From: a virus
Length of the DNA stretch: 36,116 nucleotides
Reading direction: 5' to 3' (one strand)
Virus record (IMG/VR): IMGVR_UViG_3300035703_000239
Span: 1-36,116 of that record
Shown here: positions 3,137 through 25,802 of the stretch, piece after piece
Numbering within the stretch: the stretch's first letter is position 1
Layout: each line of letters starts with the position of its first letter
The notes under the pieces: generated by a model
What the model saw: only the letters and a program-made list of their open reading frames with translations
Databases searched by the model: none
What the model was told of the DNA's origin: nothing
Made by a program: the position numbers and the translations under genes

Positions 3137-4045
3137 TTAGTCGCGCCTGCAAAAGTCAATGGCAAACCCGTTTTGCATCTCGACGTATTGCTGAGACTGC
3201 CGGTCATACCAAAGCCTTATCACGCCTTCCCACTCGCCATTTCGCTGCTTCTCGACTGCGAGATAAGCGTCAGGGATTGACTGATCGACCACGCCGTTAG
3301 CCTCAAGCTCGCGCTCTTTTTTCTTGTTCCTGTGCAGCAGCATCACGTTGTCGACCTGATCGGCTATTGAGCCGCTGCCCTTCAGGTCCATCTTGCTCGG
3401 CAAGTTCTCATCGTTTTGCTGCTTGCGAATGTGATGCACCAGGTGAACGTGCATATCCTGATCCCTCGCAAGCGCACAGAGCTCATCCGTGAAGTTCTTT
3501 TGACCGTTGTAGTCATCTTCGCCTTTGACGCACTTCATCAGGCTATCGACTAGGTAGTGCTTGCACTGTAGCTGCTTAGTCGCATAGACACCAACGCCAA
3601 GCACCTGCTGGGGCGAGACGGTGCCTTGCTGGTCGTAAAACCACATGTTCGCGCCTACCCAGTCCCTAAAGGCTTCGTATTGGTCTACAGTCGGCATCGA
3701 CATGCGCGACCACTGCCGGACCATGCGCTTAAGGGTCGCTAGTGGCTTCATCTCGAAAGATGCGATAACTAGCTTTTGACCTTGCGCGATCAGACCAAGC
3801 GCAATCTGGCCGGTGAGCATGGATTTTCCGCTTCCATTCTGGCCTGCATAGACCGTGATTTCACCAAGCCGGAACCGGAACAAATCCTCGGTCTTGCTCC
3901 AAGGCATGACGATCTTCGGAGCGTGTACCGGATGCCGCACTTCGTCGATAAGCTGATCCATGCAATCAGCAACTGGGCGCACCTTGACGCTTGCCTCCAT
4001 CGACTCGTACCAGGCTTGATAATCGAGGTCTTGAATGATATTCAT
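3137..4045 (-). CDS. Replicative DNA helicase, RecA-fold DnaB/T7 gp4-like
   Basis: This 302-residue protein is a hexameric-helicase motor domain without a DnaB-type N-terminal domain or primase. Walker A is AGQNGSGKS at residues 67-75. The SFEM segment holds the catalytic Glu at 98. Walker B is HYLVDSL with Asp167. The sensor-like HHIRK is at 204-208. LKGSGSIADQVDN at 221-233 is the typical DnaB/Twinkle H4-type segment, and AVEKQRNGE with an expected arginine finger follows. It would unwind phage DNA at the fork after loading by the initiator encoded two genes upstream. The gene overlaps its upstream neighbour by four bases. No primase is seen, so a host primase is probably recruited. Confidence 0.88.
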   Translation of the reverse strand: MNIIQDLDYQAWYESMEASVKVRPVADCMDQLIDEVRHPVHAPKIVMPWSKTEDLFRFRLGEITVYAGQNGSGKSMLTGQIALGLIAQGQKLVIASFEMKPLATLKRMVRQWSRMSMPTVDQYEAFRDWVGANMWFYDQQGTVSPQQVLGVGVYATKQLQCKHYLVDSLMKCVKGEDDYNGQKNFTDELCALARDQDMHVHLVHHIRKQQNDENLPSKMDLKGSGSIADQVDNVMLLHRNKKKERELEANGVVDQSIPDAYLAVEKQRNGEWEGVIRLWYDRQSQQYVEMQNGFAIDFCRRD

Positions 4046-4338
4046 GCGTCGACCTCCGAATCCCAGACGATAACCGGTGAAGTCTCTAGGTAGTTGGCAA
4101 TGACTCGCGCAGGGCTAAATCGCAAGACGGCTTGCACGATCTTGTAAACCGCTTCCGAGTCAATGCCTGAGACAAAGACGCGCAGTGACCTTACAAAGCG
4201 GAAATCAAAATCGTGCTTGGCAACAATAACGACTGGATAAAGTTCGTCAGCGTCGGGCTTGCCTTCAAGATCGATAAAAACGGCTCGTGGGGGTTTGCCT
4301 GCAATGAGTTGAGAGCTAACAAAGTCGTGGCCGATCAT
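4042..4338 (-). CDS. Hypothetical protein between initiator and helicase (98 aa)
   Basis: The 98-residue product alternates short hydrophobic strands (RAVFIDLEG, PVVIVAKHDF, SLRVFVSGI) with a helix (SEAVYKIVQAVLRF), suggesting a small alpha/beta fold. No catalytic motif or named family is recognised. It is flanked by four-base overlaps with the initiator and helicase genes, so it is co-expressed with them. A helicase-loading or accessory role is possible but rests only on position. Confidence 0.6.
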   Translation of the reverse strand: MIGHDFVSSQLIAGKPPRAVFIDLEGKPDADELYPVVIVAKHDFDFRFVRSLRVFVSGIDSEAVYKIVQAVLRFSPARVIANYLETSPVIVWDSEVDA

Positions 4339-5039
4339 ATGCCACCCCTGCCAGCAGCAGCGTCGAGGTTTGTCGATGGAGTTGACTTTCTATCTTTTTC
4401 TAGCCATTCAGCCTTAAAGCCTGCCCATCCTCGCTCGCAAGATAGTTGGAATACCTCAGCGATGCTCATCTTAGCTAAATCAGCCTCTCGCTTAATACCC
4501 TCAAATGCAATGACTGTAAGAGGAGCTTTCTTTTGCTTGCGTAATGCTTTGTAAGACTGCCAGAGCGTCTCGGAAACGCCTTCAGGTTTAGCAACAACAA
4601 TACCATTTGATTTAGGTTTATTACTTTGGTTATTGGTTATTGGTTGTTGGTTATTGGTTGGTTGCACGGTCGTTGAACGCTCGTTGAACGTCTGTTGAAC
4701 GGTCGTTGAACATCTGTTAATCGCTCGTTTAGCTGCCGATGCTTTTCCAGCCTTAGAAGCACTCTCAAGCTGTTGCCTGTAGTGCTCAATCTCACGATCA
4801 CATCTTTTGTGATGCCATTCATCGCCCTGCAAATCGAAAAACATGCTCAATATGCTTTGCAAGGCATCTTGCTGACTTCGAGCGTTTACTTTCATTGAAA
4901 GCTCAGACATCGAGTTTGGTAGCGGCTTTTCTGTGTCGTAGTAAAGCCAAAGCAACTTCAGGTAAATACCAACTTCTTCGTTGGTCAAGAATGAAGTGTC
5001 TTTTATGAAGTCACCAATATGGTGCTGGTAATAGTGCAT
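4335..5039 (-). CDS. DUF1376 (YdaU-like) replication initiator / replisome organiser
   Basis: Residues 1-85 show the DUF1376 signature: MHYYQHHIGDFIKDTSFLTN, YLKLLWLYYDTEKPLP, and a DEWHHKRCDREIEHYRQ helix. A low-complexity linker of about residues 102-137 is rich in Thr, Gln and Asn. The C-terminal part (about 150-234) is helical, with a W-KAEWL segment typical of replisome organisers. The linker is encoded by DNA repeats of 11 bp and 7 bp, neither a multiple of three, so the repeats look selected at DNA level as an origin, as iterons within lambda gene O are. The start has AAAGG seven bases upstream and lies about 105 bp downstream of the predicted transcription start. First gene of the helicase operon. 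Confidence 0.82.
   Translation of the reverse strand: MHYYQHHIGDFIKDTSFLTNEEVGIYLKLLWLYYDTEKPLPNSMSELSMKVNARSQQDALQSILSMFFDLQGDEWHHKRCDREIEHYRQQLESASKAGKASAAKRAINRCSTTVQQTFNERSTTVQPTNNQQPITNNQSNKPKSNGIVVAKPEGVSETLWQSYKALRKQKKAPLTVIAFEGIKREADLAKMSIAEVFQLSCERGWAGFKAEWLEKDRKSTPSTNLDAAAGRGGI
4630..4736 (-). repeat. Candidate replication origin: 11-bp iterons plus tandem AT-rich heptamers
   Basis: On the plus strand, five 11-bp units start at 4671, 4682, 4693, 4704 and 4715, with core [C/T]GTTGAACG degrading to TGTTAATCG in the fifth. A weak sixth unit starts at 4726. Directly alongside, at 4630-4657, four tandem 7-bp units (TTATTGG, three exact and one TTGTTGG) form an AT-rich block. Neither period is a multiple of three, although the region is inside a coding sequence. 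Iterons beside an AT-rich unwinding element inside the initiator gene is the arrangement of the lambda origin in gene O. Function as an origin is inferred. Confidence 0.75.
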
Positions 5040-6025: not shown

Positions 6026-6239
6026 CTGGTGGCTCGATAACCAACTTTACCAACACGACAAGGAGCGAGAGAAAAATGAGCGAGAACAGCTGGAACAACA
6101 GAGAGACGAACCTGGAGAAACCGAACCCGATAGTCGAGTGGTTGCTGTGCGCCGCTCTCGGTATTGCCCTGGGTGTCCTAATGTTTTTCTTTGTCAGATA
6201 GGCGGATGCTATGAAATTCAACGAACTGAGGATGATTAA
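6015..6239 (+). CDS. Small acidic/charged protein (74 aa frame), uncertain
   Basis: ATG at 6015 overlaps the previous stop and starts MDYDWWLDNQLYQHDKERE, a start typical of small phage proteins. The first about 33 residues look genuine and helical. The rest (residues 34-74, Arg/Cys-rich) overlaps another frame encoding a clear membrane segment (6076-6201) and reads like a shadow. Either both frames are used, or only one is real. I give it even odds. Confidence 0.45.
   Translation: MDYDWWLDNQLYQHDKEREKNEREQLEQQRDEPGETEPDSRVVAVRRSRYCPGCPNVFLCQIGGCYEIQRTEDD
6076..6201 (+). CDS. Small single-span membrane protein (41 aa)
   Basis: ATG at 6076 has an AGGAG(C) ribosome-site-like sequence about 14 bases upstream and an AGAG closer. 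The 41-residue product has a polar N-terminus (MSENSWNNRETNLEKPNP) followed by a 20-residue hydrophobic span (VEWLLCAALGIALGVLMFFF) and a final Arg. This is a textbook single transmembrane helix and is unlikely to arise by chance. It is nested in a longer frame (6015-6239) in +1 register. Function unknown; small early membrane proteins often modify host processes. Confidence 0.55.
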   Translation: MSENSWNNRETNLEKPNPIVEWLLCAALGIALGVLMFFFVR

Positions 6240-6762
6240 CGTCAAGGACAAGATCGAGAAGAAGAACAACCTCTCGTATCTATCCTGGGCCTGGGCTGTA
6301 GACACCCTGTTGCAACACGATCCGGCTGCGAGCTGGGAATACAAACCTCACCAGACTTGGAATGACACGGTGATGGTCTTTTGCGAAGTCAAAGCCTTTG
6401 GAGTGTCTCGCACCGCTCAGCTGCCGGTAATGAATCACCGCAACCAGCCTATTGCTAACCCTGATGCTTTTCAGGTCAACACGGCGATGCAAAGATGCTT
6501 GGCAAAGGCAATCGCTTTACATGGCATCGGTTTGCACATCTATGCTGGCGAGGATTTGCCAGAGGGTGCAGAATCTGTAGAACCTGGCGCAGAATCTGAT
6601 AGCGACCACATTGCAAAGCTAGCCAGTGCTGAGTCCATAGAGGACTTAAAGCAGATATTCGCGCAGGCTTACAAGGTCAGCAAGAACAATCCAGACATGA
6701 TCAAGAAGCTCGAAGAAGTTAAAGACAAACGCAAGCGAGAGCTCACCGAGGTTAAGAAATGA
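6211..6762 (+). CDS. sak: Single-strand annealing protein, Sak/DUF1071 (Rad52-like)
   Basis: The 183-residue protein carries the DUF1071 hallmark VKDKIEKKNNLSYLSWAWAV (about residues 11-30). Then follow a W-Y strand region, RTAQLPVMNHRNQPI, and NTAMQRCLAKAIALHGIGLHIYAGEDLP (about 89-116), the core of Sak-type annealases related to Rad52. The C-terminus is charged and helical (KKLEEVKDKRKRELTEVKK), usual for the ring periphery or partner binding. It would anneal complementary ssDNA exposed by the exonuclease encoded at 8253-8849. The two genes together form a lambda Red-like pair. It overlaps the next gene by four bases. Confidence 0.88.
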   Translation: MKFNELRMINVKDKIEKKNNLSYLSWAWAVDTLLQHDPAASWEYKPHQTWNDTVMVFCEVKAFGVSRTAQLPVMNHRNQPIANPDAFQVNTAMQRCLAKAIALHGIGLHIYAGEDLPEGAESVEPGAESDSDHIAKLASAESIEDLKQIFAQAYKVSKNNPDMIKKLEEVKDKRKRELTEVKK

Positions 6763-7097
6763 ACCAGCAACAGATACTCGATGCTGCAAAGCGATCCGGT
6801 GTGCTTATCTCTGGCCGCGATGAGTTCCTAAAGGCAGTCACCCAGTTTGGCAAGCTGCTTATCAACAAGGCAGCGCCAAGGCCGCTGACAAAGACTCAGA
6901 GAGCTTATCTTGCTGCGCTCGATGATTGGAAGTCGTTGCAAGAGCTAGCCGATAAGTTTAATTGCACGCCACAAAATGCCCTAAAGATCGTCAGGGCCTT
7001 GGAAGCAAATCGACTTATAAGCAAAACAAAACTCTTTAAGCGCAGGACTGACAAAGGCGCATGGGCCTTCTACTACAGGCGAAACAATGAACATTGA
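6759..7097 (+). CDS. Winged-helix DNA-binding protein (112 aa)
   Basis: After an N-terminal helical stretch, residues 46-90 form a winged-helix pattern: TKTQRAYLAALDDW, SLQELADKFNCTPQNALKIV (recognition helix), ALEANRLISKTK, then a basic wing (RRTDKGAWAFYYRR). This resembles MarR/GntR-like or replication-accessory winged helices rather than Cro/CI. The GAGG ribosome site and ATGA overlap tie its expression to the annealing protein. A regulatory or recombination-accessory role is inferred. Confidence 0.62.
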   Translation: MNQQQILDAAKRSGVLISGRDEFLKAVTQFGKLLINKAAPRPLTKTQRAYLAALDDWKSLQELADKFNCTPQNALKIVRALEANRLISKTKLFKRRTDKGAWAFYYRRNNEH

Positions 7098-7428
7098 TCG
7101 ATTCGAAGAAGATTTACTCAATAGCATCCAAGCGCAGCGTTGTCGCAAATTGCTCTGGGCTGTCATTGAGCTAGCCGTTGATGATGCTTGCAGGGTTCCT
7201 AACCGTGTCACGCCGCAAGACGATGCGGTATCAGCCCTGCGATTTCTATTGTCTGAAGACATCGACGGCTATCTGATGTGGCTCGATGTCAATGCCGGTG
7301 AGTTTAAGCGCCGGTTGCTGGAGGCTATGTACTCGGAGAAGCAAAACAAGTTCGATGAGAGCTCAAAACGTGCTTTTCGGTTCAATCACAAATGGTATGT
7401 CAGAAATGCGAATCATACTCACCACTGA
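7087..7428 (+). CDS. Conserved hypothetical phage protein (113 aa)
   Basis: The product is helical: CRKLLWAVIELAVDDACRVP, then DDAVSALRFLLSEDIDGYLMWLDVNAGEFKRRLLEAM. The pattern of a double-helix unit followed by an aromatic-rich segment with an AG-E-K-R motif is shared with hypothetical proteins common in phage recombination/replication regions. The C-terminus is His/Asn-rich (NANHTHH). No catalytic motif. It overlaps the next gene by about 23 bases. Confidence 0.6.
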   Translation: MNIDRFEEDLLNSIQAQRCRKLLWAVIELAVDDACRVPNRVTPQDDAVSALRFLLSEDIDGYLMWLDVNAGEFKRRLLEAMYSEKQNKFDESSKRAFRFNHKWYVRNANHTHH

Positions 7429-7816
7429 AAGCGATCGCGTGAAGGCTTTAGAGGCCGTACAAGGAGCTGAACTGGGCCTGATGGTAACAATCATCAAGCC
7501 ACCTCGAACAGCGGCTCAGAATCGCTTTTATTGGGCTTTGCTGACTGCTTGCTCGGAGCAGTTAGTCGCTGGCCGGTATTCGCAGGAAATCTGGCACGAA
7601 TGGGCGAAGTCTCGGTTTTTAGGCTCGGAGATGATCGAGCTGCCTGGAGGCCAACTTAAGGAGGTGGAAGCAAGTACAACAATGCTAAACACGGAGTCAT
7701 TCACTAACTATGTTGAGCAGATTCTGGCCTACGCGCTGGAAAAAGGCTTGATCTGGACCGACGAGATGAAGGATTCAGAGCTTGACCTTGTAAAGCTCGG
7801 CATTAGAAAACGATAG
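7406..7816 (+). CDS. ninB: NinB/Orf-like recombination mediator
   Basis: The pattern KPPRTAAQNRFYWALLTACSEQ, then EIWHEWAKSRFLG, then an ASTTMLNTESFTNYVEQILAY segment is that of the NinB (lambda Orf, YbcN) family. These dimeric ssDNA-binding proteins help load annealing proteins onto SSB-coated DNA. A frame open from 7286 has Met candidates at 7397 and 7406. I choose 7406 (MRIILTT...) because family members start just before this strand, but neither has a strong ribosome site. The product is 136 residues, close to the usual size. Context with Sak, exonuclease and an SSB-like protein supports the call. Confidence 0.8.
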   Translation: MRIILTTESDRVKALEAVQGAELGLMVTIIKPPRTAAQNRFYWALLTACSEQLVAGRYSQEIWHEWAKSRFLGSEMIELPGGQLKEVEASTTMLNTESFTNYVEQILAYALEKGLIWTDEMKDSELDLVKLGIRKR

Positions 7817-7824
7817 GGGTCGCT

Positions 7825-8055
7825 ATGAACCGAGAAGACATCATCCGCATGGCGCGTGAGGCTGGACTAGCTTACGGATCTGACGAAAAACCATTGGGGT
7901 CTGTAACACGCTTCGCCGCTCTTGTTTTTGCGGCTGGCGCTGATGCTGAACGTGAGGCGTGTGCGAAGGTTGTTGAAGATTACTGTGGTGCATGGGATGA
8001 CGGAGGCTATGCGCTTGCCGCTTCCATACGAGAAAGGGGAAATCATGCAGCTTAG
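7825..8055 (+). CDS. Small conserved phage protein (76 aa)
   Basis: Good AGGGG ribosome site. The sequence MNREDIIRMAREAGLAYG, RFAALVFAAGADAEREACAKVVE is the widespread phage pattern of a helical N-terminal motif followed by an AEREACAKV helix. These proteins are common in early regions of phages of beta- and gammaproteobacteria; no function is known. It overlaps the following zinc-finger gene by 11 bases. Confidence 0.65.
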   Translation: MNREDIIRMAREAGLAYGSDEKPLGSVTRFAALVFAAGADAEREACAKVVEDYCGAWDDGGYALAASIRERGNHAA

Positions 8056-8272
8056 AGGCGACAGAAACCAATGCCAAGCCTGCAAACAGTATTTCAACTC
8101 AACGTTCGCGTTTGATAAGCATCGAACTGGCGATTTTGGACTGAGCCGTAGATGCAAAACAGGCGATGAAATGAGGCAGGTGGGTATGAGTATCAACAGC
8201 GCAGGATTTTGGATTTCTAGCGCTTATGCAGGACCAGCAAAAAGGGGTGAAAATGGATCAGAGAACGGTTGA
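8045..8272 (+). CDS. C2H2-type zinc-finger phage protein (75 aa)
   Basis: ATG at 8045 has AAGGGG seven bases upstream. The open frame extends further up but that part is antisense-like shadow of the preceding gene. Residues 9-35 contain CQACKQYFNSTFAFDKHRTG and a following RRCKTGDEM. The Cys-x2-Cys pair, the His in FDKHR and a later Cys form a likely zinc-binding finger. This FDRHR-type small finger protein recurs in phage genomes. A DNA- or protein-binding accessory role is inferred. It overlaps the exonuclease start. Confidence 0.7.
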   Translation: MQLRGDRNQCQACKQYFNSTFAFDKHRTGDFGLSRRCKTGDEMRQVGMSINSAGFWISSAYAGPAKRGENGSENG

Positions 8273-8849
8273 GTGGTACCAGGCGAGGCTTGGACACGTT
8301 ACAGCGAGCAGGGCTAGCGATGCGATTGCAAAAAAAGATAGCGCGACCAGGCGCAACTATGCAATTCAGTTGGTCACGGAAAGGCTCACGAAGTTACCCG
8401 TCGAAGGCTTTCAGTCGGCAGCAATGCAATGGGGTGTCGAGCAAGAACCGGTGGCTAGGGCTTGCTATGAGGCCCATACAGGCGTTTTTGTAGAGCAGAC
8501 AGGGTTTCATACTCATCCATCTATAAAATGGCTTGGAGCATCGCCGGACGGGTTCGCTGAAGATGGTTTGCTAGAGATCAAATGCCCTAATAGCAATACC
8601 CATGTTGATTATTTACTCGCAAAGGAGGTGCCAGCAAAGTACAAATCTCAAATGCTTACTCAAATGCTCGTGACTGGGCGCAGGTGGTGCGACTTTGTGT
8701 CGTTCGATCCACGACTGCCTGAGCACTTGCAACTATTCGTTATTCGCTATCAACCAAAGCCAGAGGATTTCAAGATTATTGAAATCCAACTTACTAACTT
8801 TCTGGCCGAGGTCGAACAAATGGAGCAGCAGCTATGTCAAAAGAGCTAA
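8253..8849 (+). CDS. Lambda-exonuclease/YqaJ-family recombination nuclease
   Basis: ATG at 8253 (MDQRTVEWYQARLGHVTASR) follows AGGGGTG and matches the family N-terminus better than the upstream ATG at 8226. The 198-residue protein has the PD-(D/E)XK core of lambda exonuclease: W60GVEQEP (Glu65), SPDG (Asp99), LEIKCP (Glu108, Lys110), and the Gln-rich QMLTQMLVTGRRWCDF helix with the FDPR segment. Asp99, Glu108 and Lys110 would bind Mg2+. It resects dsDNA 5' to 3' to create ssDNA for the Sak protein. Length is slightly shorter than lambda Exo (226). Co-transcribed with the annealing, Orf and SSB-like genes. Confidence 0.9.
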   Translation: MDQRTVEWYQARLGHVTASRASDAIAKKDSATRRNYAIQLVTERLTKLPVEGFQSAAMQWGVEQEPVARACYEAHTGVFVEQTGFHTHPSIKWLGASPDGFAEDGLLEIKCPNSNTHVDYLLAKEVPAKYKSQMLTQMLVTGRRWCDFVSFDPRLPEHLQLFVIRYQPKPEDFKIIEIQLTNFLAEVEQMEQQLCQKS

Positions 8850-23603: not shown

Positions 23604-25802
23604 TTATCCCCAAATCATTGCAGTCATGATGCCACCGGAAGCACCGCCGCCACCGGATACATTAACGGTTACAGCAGAGCCTACTGCTGTAGCTGTTACG
23701 CCAGAGCCTGTGAAGTTGATGCTGCCAACTGCTGCGGTTATTTGCGTGCCTTCATCCGAAATAGGAATGGTCGCCGCAGCGGTCGGTGTTGACCAAGTTC
23801 CATCACCGCGCCAAAAAGTTGTTGAAGACGCAGAGGTTCCAGAATTAAGATTGGTAACAGGTAAGTTACCTGTGACACCCGTAGACAGTGGCAAGCCTGT
23901 TGCATTAGTTAACGTGACTGCACTAGGCGTACCAAGATTAGGCGTTGTTAATGTTGGAGACGTTGCCAGGACATTGTCGCCTGTTCCGGTATTCGTGACA
24001 CTAACAATATTTTTACTTGCGTCTAGTGCAAGCGCTGTGCTTGCGGTTAAGCCGGACAATGTTGCGGTCGAAGATGCAGAGAGCGTAGTAAACGCACCTG
24101 TGGTTGGTGTTGTTGCGCCGACCGTGCCATTGATATTGATTGATGCGGTTCCAGTTAAATTTGTAACTGTTCCGCTAGAAGGTGTTCCTAAAGCACCGCC
24201 ATTGACAACAAATGCACCTGCACTACCTGTATTAACACCAAGCGCCGTAATAACACCTGTACCTGTTGTCACCGTGCTTGGTGCTGCACCGGCACCACCA
24301 CCAACTACCAGGTTATTTGAAGCAAGAACGCTTGAGCTTGCCCACGTTGTTGAACCTGAAAAGTACGGAATACCGCCAGAGGTCCCCGCAACCGTTAAGG
24401 CTAATGTGCCAGATGATTCGATGGGCGAACCAGATACAGAAATCAAACCACCTGTAAATGTCTGGGCTACAGAAGAAACACCGCCGCCACCGCCAGAAGA
24501 ACTTAACGTACCCGCCGACAGCGTTAACCCAGATCCAACCGTTACATTACTAAAACCGCCTGAACCATTGTTAGCCAATAACTGAGCGTTTGTACCAGTC
24601 GTTGGTGCTGCGTAATCTGTGCCTGCTGTGGCATTGGCTAATGCGCCTCCAGAGTTAGCTTTAAGCAGCGATGTTCCAGAAGGTGGCGCAAGGTAATCTA
24701 TGCCTGCCGTAGCATTAGCAAGAGCGCCGCCAGAATTGGCTTTTAGAATTGCGGAGCCAGACGGAGGAGCGAGATAATCTGTGCCTGCCGTAGCGTTGCT
24801 AAAGCCTCCAGAGCCAGAGCCTTTTAATATGCTGGTTCCTGACGTTGCCGGAGCGTAATCCGTGCCGCTTGTCGCTGTCGTAAAGCCTGATCCGTTGCCT
24901 TTAAGAATTCCGCTTAGGCTAGTCGTGACAGCAATCGTGCCGGAGGTCGTTACAGGTGAGCTTGCAACCGTGAACCCACTGGGCATGGTTAAACCAACGG
25001 ATGTAACCGTTCCTGAGCCTGATCCTGTAGCCGTTAGCGTACCGCCGCTCAGGCTAAGCCCTGAACCTACGGTGACGTTAGCAAAACCGTTTGAGCCATC
25101 ATTAGCAAGCAGCTGGGCATTCGTTCCGGTCGGGCTTGCTGGTACGCCTAGAGCTGTTCTCGCGCCTGATTCGGTGGTCGCGCCTGTACCACCATTGGCA
25201 ATCGCAACCGTGCCGCTTACGTTTGCAGCTGTGCCGGTCGTGTTTTGGTTAAGCGTTGGAATATCAGCAGCGACTAGAGCCCTAAACGTAGGCGCACCAG
25301 ACGATCCGTTAGGAGCAGCAAGCACATAGTTTGCTGTCTTGGCCGCATAAGGGTTAACAGTGTCGCCGTAAGCCGTCGCAAGCGCAATCGTGCCTGTGCT
25401 GGTAATCGTTCCACCGCTTAGACCTGTGCCTGCTGTGATGCTGGTAACACCGCTCGCGCTTTGCTCTGCCCACTCTACGTCAGTCGCGCCAGAATTGACC
25501 CTAAGCACCTTCGTAGCATTGCCAGCGTAAGACGGAAGCAAGTTAGTCCTTGCACCAGCAGCAGTGCTAGCCCCAGTGCCACCGTCTGCAACCGCCAAGT
25601 CAGTGATTCCAGCAATCGAGCCTCCAGTGATCGAAACGGCATTAGCGTCCTGCGTGGCTATAGTTCCAAGGCTATCAAGAGCAAGGTCTGCGATATCTCC
25701 AGCCGAGATTTTGAAGTTACTAGCGCCACGCGTAACGGGGATTTCATCGCCTGCTTGGGCTGGCGATCCGTCGTTAAGCTGACTTATCTTTACGTCTGCC
25801 AT
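23604..25802 (-). CDS. Repeat-rich fibre-like structural protein
   Basis: 732 residues, low-complexity, rich in Gly, Thr, Ser and Ala. The N-terminus [20 protein letters not shown] with IPVTRG is common in phage fibres. [18 protein letters not shown] (about residues 71-88) and [19 protein letters not shown] (about 200-218) are the well-known fibre-shaft motif. Residues about 299-413 contain four tandem copies of a 27-residue unit. The C-terminus has GDGTWSTP and a Gly-rich end ([17 protein letters not shown]). Such proteins trimerise into thin fibres. No receptor-binding or S74 domain is seen at the end, so the tip may be supplied by a partner such as the LamG protein. Confidence 0.75.
24563..24908 (-). 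repeat. Tandem 81-bp coding repeats in the fibre gene
   Basis: Four consecutive units of about 27 codons (core [20 protein letters not shown] then APPSGTS) lie in tandem at about residues 299-413 of the fibre-like gene. The two middle copies are nearly identical at protein level, the outer ones diverged. DNA similarity would allow unit gain or loss by recombination, changing fibre length. Codon differences between copies show that the array is not brand new. Confidence 0.7.

Follow-up and report, generated by a model that had tools for sequence, protein, structure and literature searches.

A candidate bipartite replication origin within the linker-coding region of a viral DUF1376 gene

The putative initiator gene and its neighborhood

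The window analyzed here is a complete stretch of 36,116 bases from a virus record, in which a gene on the minus strand (4335..5039) codes for a 234-aa protein that we propose to be a replication initiator, with a candidate origin inside its own coding sequence. The protein belongs to the DUF1376 family (Pfam PF07120; 1.7e-24 over residues 2-85, 86.5 bits against a cut-off of 30.1), and PHROGs relates it both to 'primosomal protein' (9e-40) and to 'replication initiation O-like' (2e-17), with the latter match covering residues 93-220. An NCBIfam search gave no useful match, and fold and sequence searches of the PDB recovered no significant relative. Downstream and in the same orientation lies a gene for a DnaB-type helicase C-domain (3137..4045, minus strand; Pfam DnaB_C 5.3e-16, PHROG DNA primase/helicase 5.9e-58), which is separated from the initiator by a 98-aa ORF (4042..4338, minus strand) with no Pfam or PHROG match. 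A recombination module in divergent orientation (6211-8849) encodes a Sak-type annealing protein, NinB and a YqaJ-type nuclease, and an 81-bp tandem repeat of 2.5 copies (24612-24813) is found within a large minus-strand ORF (23604-25802). The cumulative GC skew of the window, proposed earlier as a check, turns near 5-6 kb; divergent transcription explains this turn equally well, and the skew is hence uninformative with respect to an origin.

The AlphaFold2 model of the initiator displays two confidently predicted domains joined by a linker. The N-terminal DUF1376 domain (residues 2-85; 4785..5036, minus strand), our proposed reader of the iterons, has block-mean pLDDT values of 82-98, mostly 95-98, with predicted helices at residues 8-15, 20-36, 44-50 and 57-67 and a beta wing formed by strands at 69-71 and 74-76. 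A fold search of the PDB with this domain returned weak, non-significant matches, several of them to winged-helix proteins, and the domain is probably a winged helix. Confidence drops in the linker, where the block means of pLDDT are 47-59 for residues 111-150, and this part is probably disordered. The C-terminal helical domain (residues ~155-218; 4386..4577, minus strand), with predicted helices at 157-169, 176-188 and 193-218, falls within the O-like PHROG match and is the proposed contact for the helicase or its loader.

Two tandem arrays in the linker and their constraint at the DNA level

The stretch coding for the linker contains two tandem arrays. The first of these (4661..4733, minus strand), delineated by self-matching, TRF and the slots of relatives, comprises seven 11-bp iteron slots with the core GTTSAAC, which on the plus strand start at 4661, 4672, 4683, 4694, 4705, 4716 and 4727. 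GTTGAAC is exact at four of these (4672, 4683, 4694 and 4705), while degenerate versions occupy 4661 (GTTGCAC), 4716 (GTTAATC) and 4727 (GTTTAGC). Since the degenerate slots keep the 11-bp register, we count seven units in place of the five put forward in a sequence-only reading of this DNA; the 8-mer GTTGAACG is exact in three units and not in five. The core reads GTTSAAC on either strand, being palindromic about its central S, and thus has the dyad symmetry of an iteron; the extended form CGTTSAACG occurs in the window only within the array. The second array (4626..4659, minus strand), identified by TRF and its lag-7 score and proposed to be an unwinding element, has about 4.9 copies of a 7-bp unit (TTGGTTA on the plus strand, ACCAATA on the gene strand), and is slightly longer than the four units at 4630-4657 originally discerned. 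On the gene strand the 11-bp iterons come first and are followed by the 7-bp array. The best lag-11 self-match in the whole window, with a score of 28 against a first-order Markov null maximum of 11, and the best lag-7 self-match, with 23 against 12, fall precisely at these arrays. The repeats in the linker are real and more extensive than had been claimed. Chance as their explanation was rejected by shuffles and by the control patterns described below.

As 11 is not a multiple of the codon length, each unit is shifted in reading frame relative to the one before, and over the three frames the core is translated as VQ (GTT CAA), ST (xGT TCA ACx) or FN (xxG TTC AAC); hence, protein repetition cannot produce the array. 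When synonymous codons were permuted with the protein held fixed, the periodicity remained significant at lag 7 (p=0.006), lag 11 (p=0.004) and lag 22 (p=0.0005), under a null that errs on the cautious side, given that the DNA repeat is already reflected in the protein. In 22 representative relatives, all retrieved solely through protein searches, codon usage within the array is biased toward the core for Ser TCA (p=4e-9), Asn AAC (p=1e-7), Arg CGT (p=5e-6) and Phe TTC (p=3e-4), and weakly for Val GTT and Gln CAA (p=0.06). In frames 0 and 2 the central base of the core may be either C or G, resulting in Q/E and F/L changes, but it is only C in frame 1, where a G would give a stop; this comparison includes genes picked by the exact pattern, making the core conservation in it partly a matter of construction. 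Thus, the frame and synonymous-codon tests agree in placing the periods of 11 and 7 beyond protein repetition, as originally suggested, and an explanation in terms of protein repeats was rejected.

Relatives vary in the number of units. In about 80 relatives found by protein search, a conserved motif lies upstream of the end of the array, at a distance of 73 bp for 68 genes and of 40 bp for another 13, the 33-bp step being exactly three 11-bp units. The Moraxella phages Mcat13 and Mcat18 also differ by 33 bp, or three units, and one relative (L031) has three additional 7-bp units. A DNA search of phage records with the window gene matched Moraxella phages and no others, with the matches confined to the array, at 87-93% identity, with the corresponding proteins being ~34% identical to that of the window. 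In the comparison of relatives that had been set beforehand, the linker residues vary, for example between Q and E or F and L at the core center, and the 11-bp and 7-bp periodicity is kept. A stretch of the DUF1376 linker in Vibrio phage 1.183.O (L364, 1261-1290) bears the annotation 'CRISPR spacer 1', which probably arose from the likeness of the repeats to a CRISPR array.

Distribution of the arrays and diversity of their cores

We scanned 2.9 million IMG/VR viral contigs for four GTTSAAC cores at 11-bp spacing, using no protein information, and obtained 113 stretches with 112 readable loci. As many as 100 of the 112 lie inside ORFs matched by iterated DUF1376 or Lin1244_N profiles, which may drift, though Pfam (PF14297 and PF07120) agrees with them in most of the samples checked; several of the remaining 12 look alike, being truncated or broken in frame. 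With the spacing set to 12 bp, the core yielded 49 stretches, just one of which is inside such an ORF; at 10 bp it yielded 2, and when scrambled and spaced at 11 bp it yielded 3. At the level of sequence, the arrays, the constraint on their DNA and their near-exclusive occurrence in the DUF1376/Lin1244_N superfamily among viral contigs are evident. In bacterial genome contigs, the GTTSAAC arrays are mostly unrelated simple repeats, with 2 of 35 being in recognized initiator ORFs and several more looking ori-like, and for this reason the bacterial scan was not used as support. An 11-bp tandem repeat of CCACCGTTCAA is present on several contigs (L255, L259, L260 and L270; Bacteroides MAG), apparently unrelated to initiators.

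The second array recurs as well. Among 40 independent initiator clusters, with less than 70% protein identity between them, 37 have a tandem array of 5-, 6- or 7-bp units that, along the coding strand, follows the iterons at 0-46 bp, and no short tandem array was seen upstream in any of the 40. The units differ between groups (ACCAATA, AACAGA, AAAGT, AACCAG, AGAGT and others), yet the arrays are T-poor (13% versus 21.5% in the gene) and on average AT-richer (67% versus 52%), with a few being GC-rich. On average, an AT-rich region thus adjoins the iterons on their 3′ side in these 37 clusters, as in origins of the lambda type, with a putative role in unwinding. The genes downstream in the loci examined code for DnaB-type helicases, primase-helicases, a helicase loader, DnaC, an IstB-like ATPase or, reminiscent of lambda, 'replication protein P'; in some loci, methylases or unassigned genes are found instead. 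A fixed order of N-domain, iterons, short repeats and C-domain, set in a replication-gene neighborhood, can be read from these sequences.

The iteron core itself is not uniform across the family. For 43 genes from bacterial genomes that were collected purely by family search, no non-triplet period in the linker is stronger than lag 11: 14 genes score at least 12, including one artefact (L315) that is high at every lag, as against 1-4 genes at lags 8, 10, 13, 14, 16 and 17, and 8 at lag 7, which reflect the short second array. The cores read by eye in this set are GTTSAAC, TGCG..CGCA, ATGCCA and a GCTNAGC-like form, and many of the genes have neither GTTSAAC nor a clear 11-bp array. Among phage records, TGCG-type units are seen in Vibrio phage 1.052.A and Acinetobacter phage phiAC-1, and GTT-type units in Bordetella and Pseudomonas phages and in another Acinetobacter phage (MD-2021a, GTT-like); nearly all of these records retain the short downstream array. 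Two genes that combine a YdaU C-domain with another N-domain (L288, 474-1262; L290, 367-1155) carry GTTAC-like repeats, with N-domain and iteron apparently having been swapped together. In another DUF1376 initiator, from E. coli (L289, 952-2100), the linker is interrupted by a T5orf172 domain and the C-domain is of the DnaT type; its repeats are CTACG/CGTAG in place of GTTSAAC.

A proposed bipartite origin, its alternatives and its parallels

Taken together, these features make it highly likely in our view that the region is a bipartite replication origin, situated where its own initiator gene codes for the linker and read by the DUF1376 N-domain. From the sequence we infer initiator binding, melting, helicase loading and origin activity along the following lines: the DUF1376 N-domain would bind the dyad-symmetric GTTSAAC cores, whose spacing of one helical turn would align the bound initiators on one face of the DNA; this nucleoprotein complex would open the tract of 7-bp repeats beside it; and the C-terminal domain would bring in the phage DnaB-type helicase or its loader.

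Other accounts of the arrays deserve consideration. It could be argued that they are a by-product of selection for a flexible, low-complexity protein linker and have no function as DNA: the linker is predicted with low confidence, is probably disordered and tolerates changes in length, and the period-6 second arrays would suit repeated dipeptides. Yet the periods of 11, 7 and 5 are not codon multiples, the 11-bp units pass through three frames, several synonymous sites are biased toward the core, the array DNA is conserved between proteins that are ~34% identical, and among viral contigs the pattern is particular to a single superfamily of genes; such a by-product accordingly strikes us as extremely improbable. 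A regulatory role comes to mind as ParR centromeres use 11-bp phased repeats and replication initiators often autoregulate, in which case the array would be an operator for autorepression of the initiator operon or a partition (centromere-like) site and not an origin. The location of the array far inside the coding region, the second short array that nearly always follows it, the frequently adjoining helicase or loader genes and the confinement of CGTTSAACG in the window to the array render this very unlikely, and Pfam searches with ten early-region genes found no partition family.

One might also grant the origin and have its 11-bp cores read by a host protein in place of the DUF1376 domain, given that phages and prophages from widely differing bacteria have the same core. 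That the Acinetobacter phages MD-2021a and phiAC-1 bear two different core types argues against a host factor, as does the absence of GTTSAAC arrays from E. coli initiators that share the YdaU C-domain but have a different N-domain. Core type also clusters on the N-domain tree (15 changes versus a shuffled mean of 25.3, with 0 of 200 shuffles as low), a result weakened by near-copies among close relatives and by noisy core calls. We see very little chance that a host protein is the reader.

An origin read by the initiator itself has a clear parallel in lambda, where ori lies in the middle of gene O, in the linker that joins the N-terminal part of O, which binds DNA, to the C-terminal part, which binds P (PMC7466680, PMC6022878). 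In lambda and Stx phage O genes each iteron is an inverted repeat, the iterons are flanked immediately on the C-terminal side by an AT-rich region, the O complex, or O-some, opens this adjacent tract at lambda ori, and Stx phages vary in copy number in frame, with two more iterons equaling 13 aa (PMC7466680, PMC6022878). The intragenic, inter-domain position of the iterons, their inverted-repeat form, the AT-rich neighbor on the C-terminal side and the in-frame copy change are all shared by the DUF1376 genes, and the likeness to lambda ori proposed at the outset is thus upheld in its layout, down to the helicase or loader genes that follow, with three amendments: the slots number seven, the core has dyad symmetry, and many other phage groups have the same arrangement. 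The differences are that the period is 11 bp, in three to ten slots, versus iterons of ~18-19 bp in lambda; that a repetitive array of 5-7-bp units takes the place of a plain 39-bp AT-rich tract; and that the N-domain is DUF1376/Lin1244_N. Pfam gives only DUF1376 for the window protein, with no Phage_rep_O match over the DNA-binding domain, and the O-like PHROG match is confined to residues 93-220; hence the region is best termed lambda-ori-like in its proposed working and not a demonstrated member of that family. Iteron plasmids offer a second parallel, in which Rep proteins such as RK2 TrfA bind double-stranded iterons together with one strand of a repeated DUE (PMC4081077). There too iterons lie beside repeated DUE units, but these are 13 bp versus 5-7 bp here, the origin here is inside a coding sequence, and the Pfam search of the window protein found no plasmid Rep family.

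A possible representative in a well-known genome is ydaU of the E. coli K-12 Rac prophage (L197, 6120-6977), a DUF1376 gene followed by ydaV, which encodes a putative ATP-binding protein. Its linker has degenerate GTTCAA/GTTGAA units, spaced for the most part by 11-12 bp, together with an array of the 6-bp unit ATAAAG. Many matches to ydaU end near this linker. The Rac prophage has an active origin, oriJ (PMC3945230), and we infer its location to be in the ydaU linker; no published sequence limits of oriJ were found in the open-access literature. In the open-access literature searched on DUF1376 and replication, Lin1244 and ydaU, which only sparsely covers subscription journals, no account of such an origin was found.

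DUF1376 is a widespread family, different from that of lambda and of previously unknown function. We lean modestly toward a general picture in which DUF1376/Lin1244_N constitutes a superfamily of phage replication initiators, in Proteobacteria, Bacteroidetes and other hosts, each with an origin in its own linker: palindromic iterons phased at 11 bp, with a core (GTTSAAC, TGCG..CGCA or others) matched to the N-domain, and a strand-biased tract of 5-7-bp repeats serving as a sequence-specific unwinding element, oriJ being a decayed example in ydaU. This would provide a likely function and DNA target for two poorly characterized families, a sequence rule for finding origins in many phages and prophages, and a proposed place for oriJ. 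The arrays also show how a signal in the DNA can shape a protein linker whichever of the three frames it is read in, with its copy number shifting by three units.
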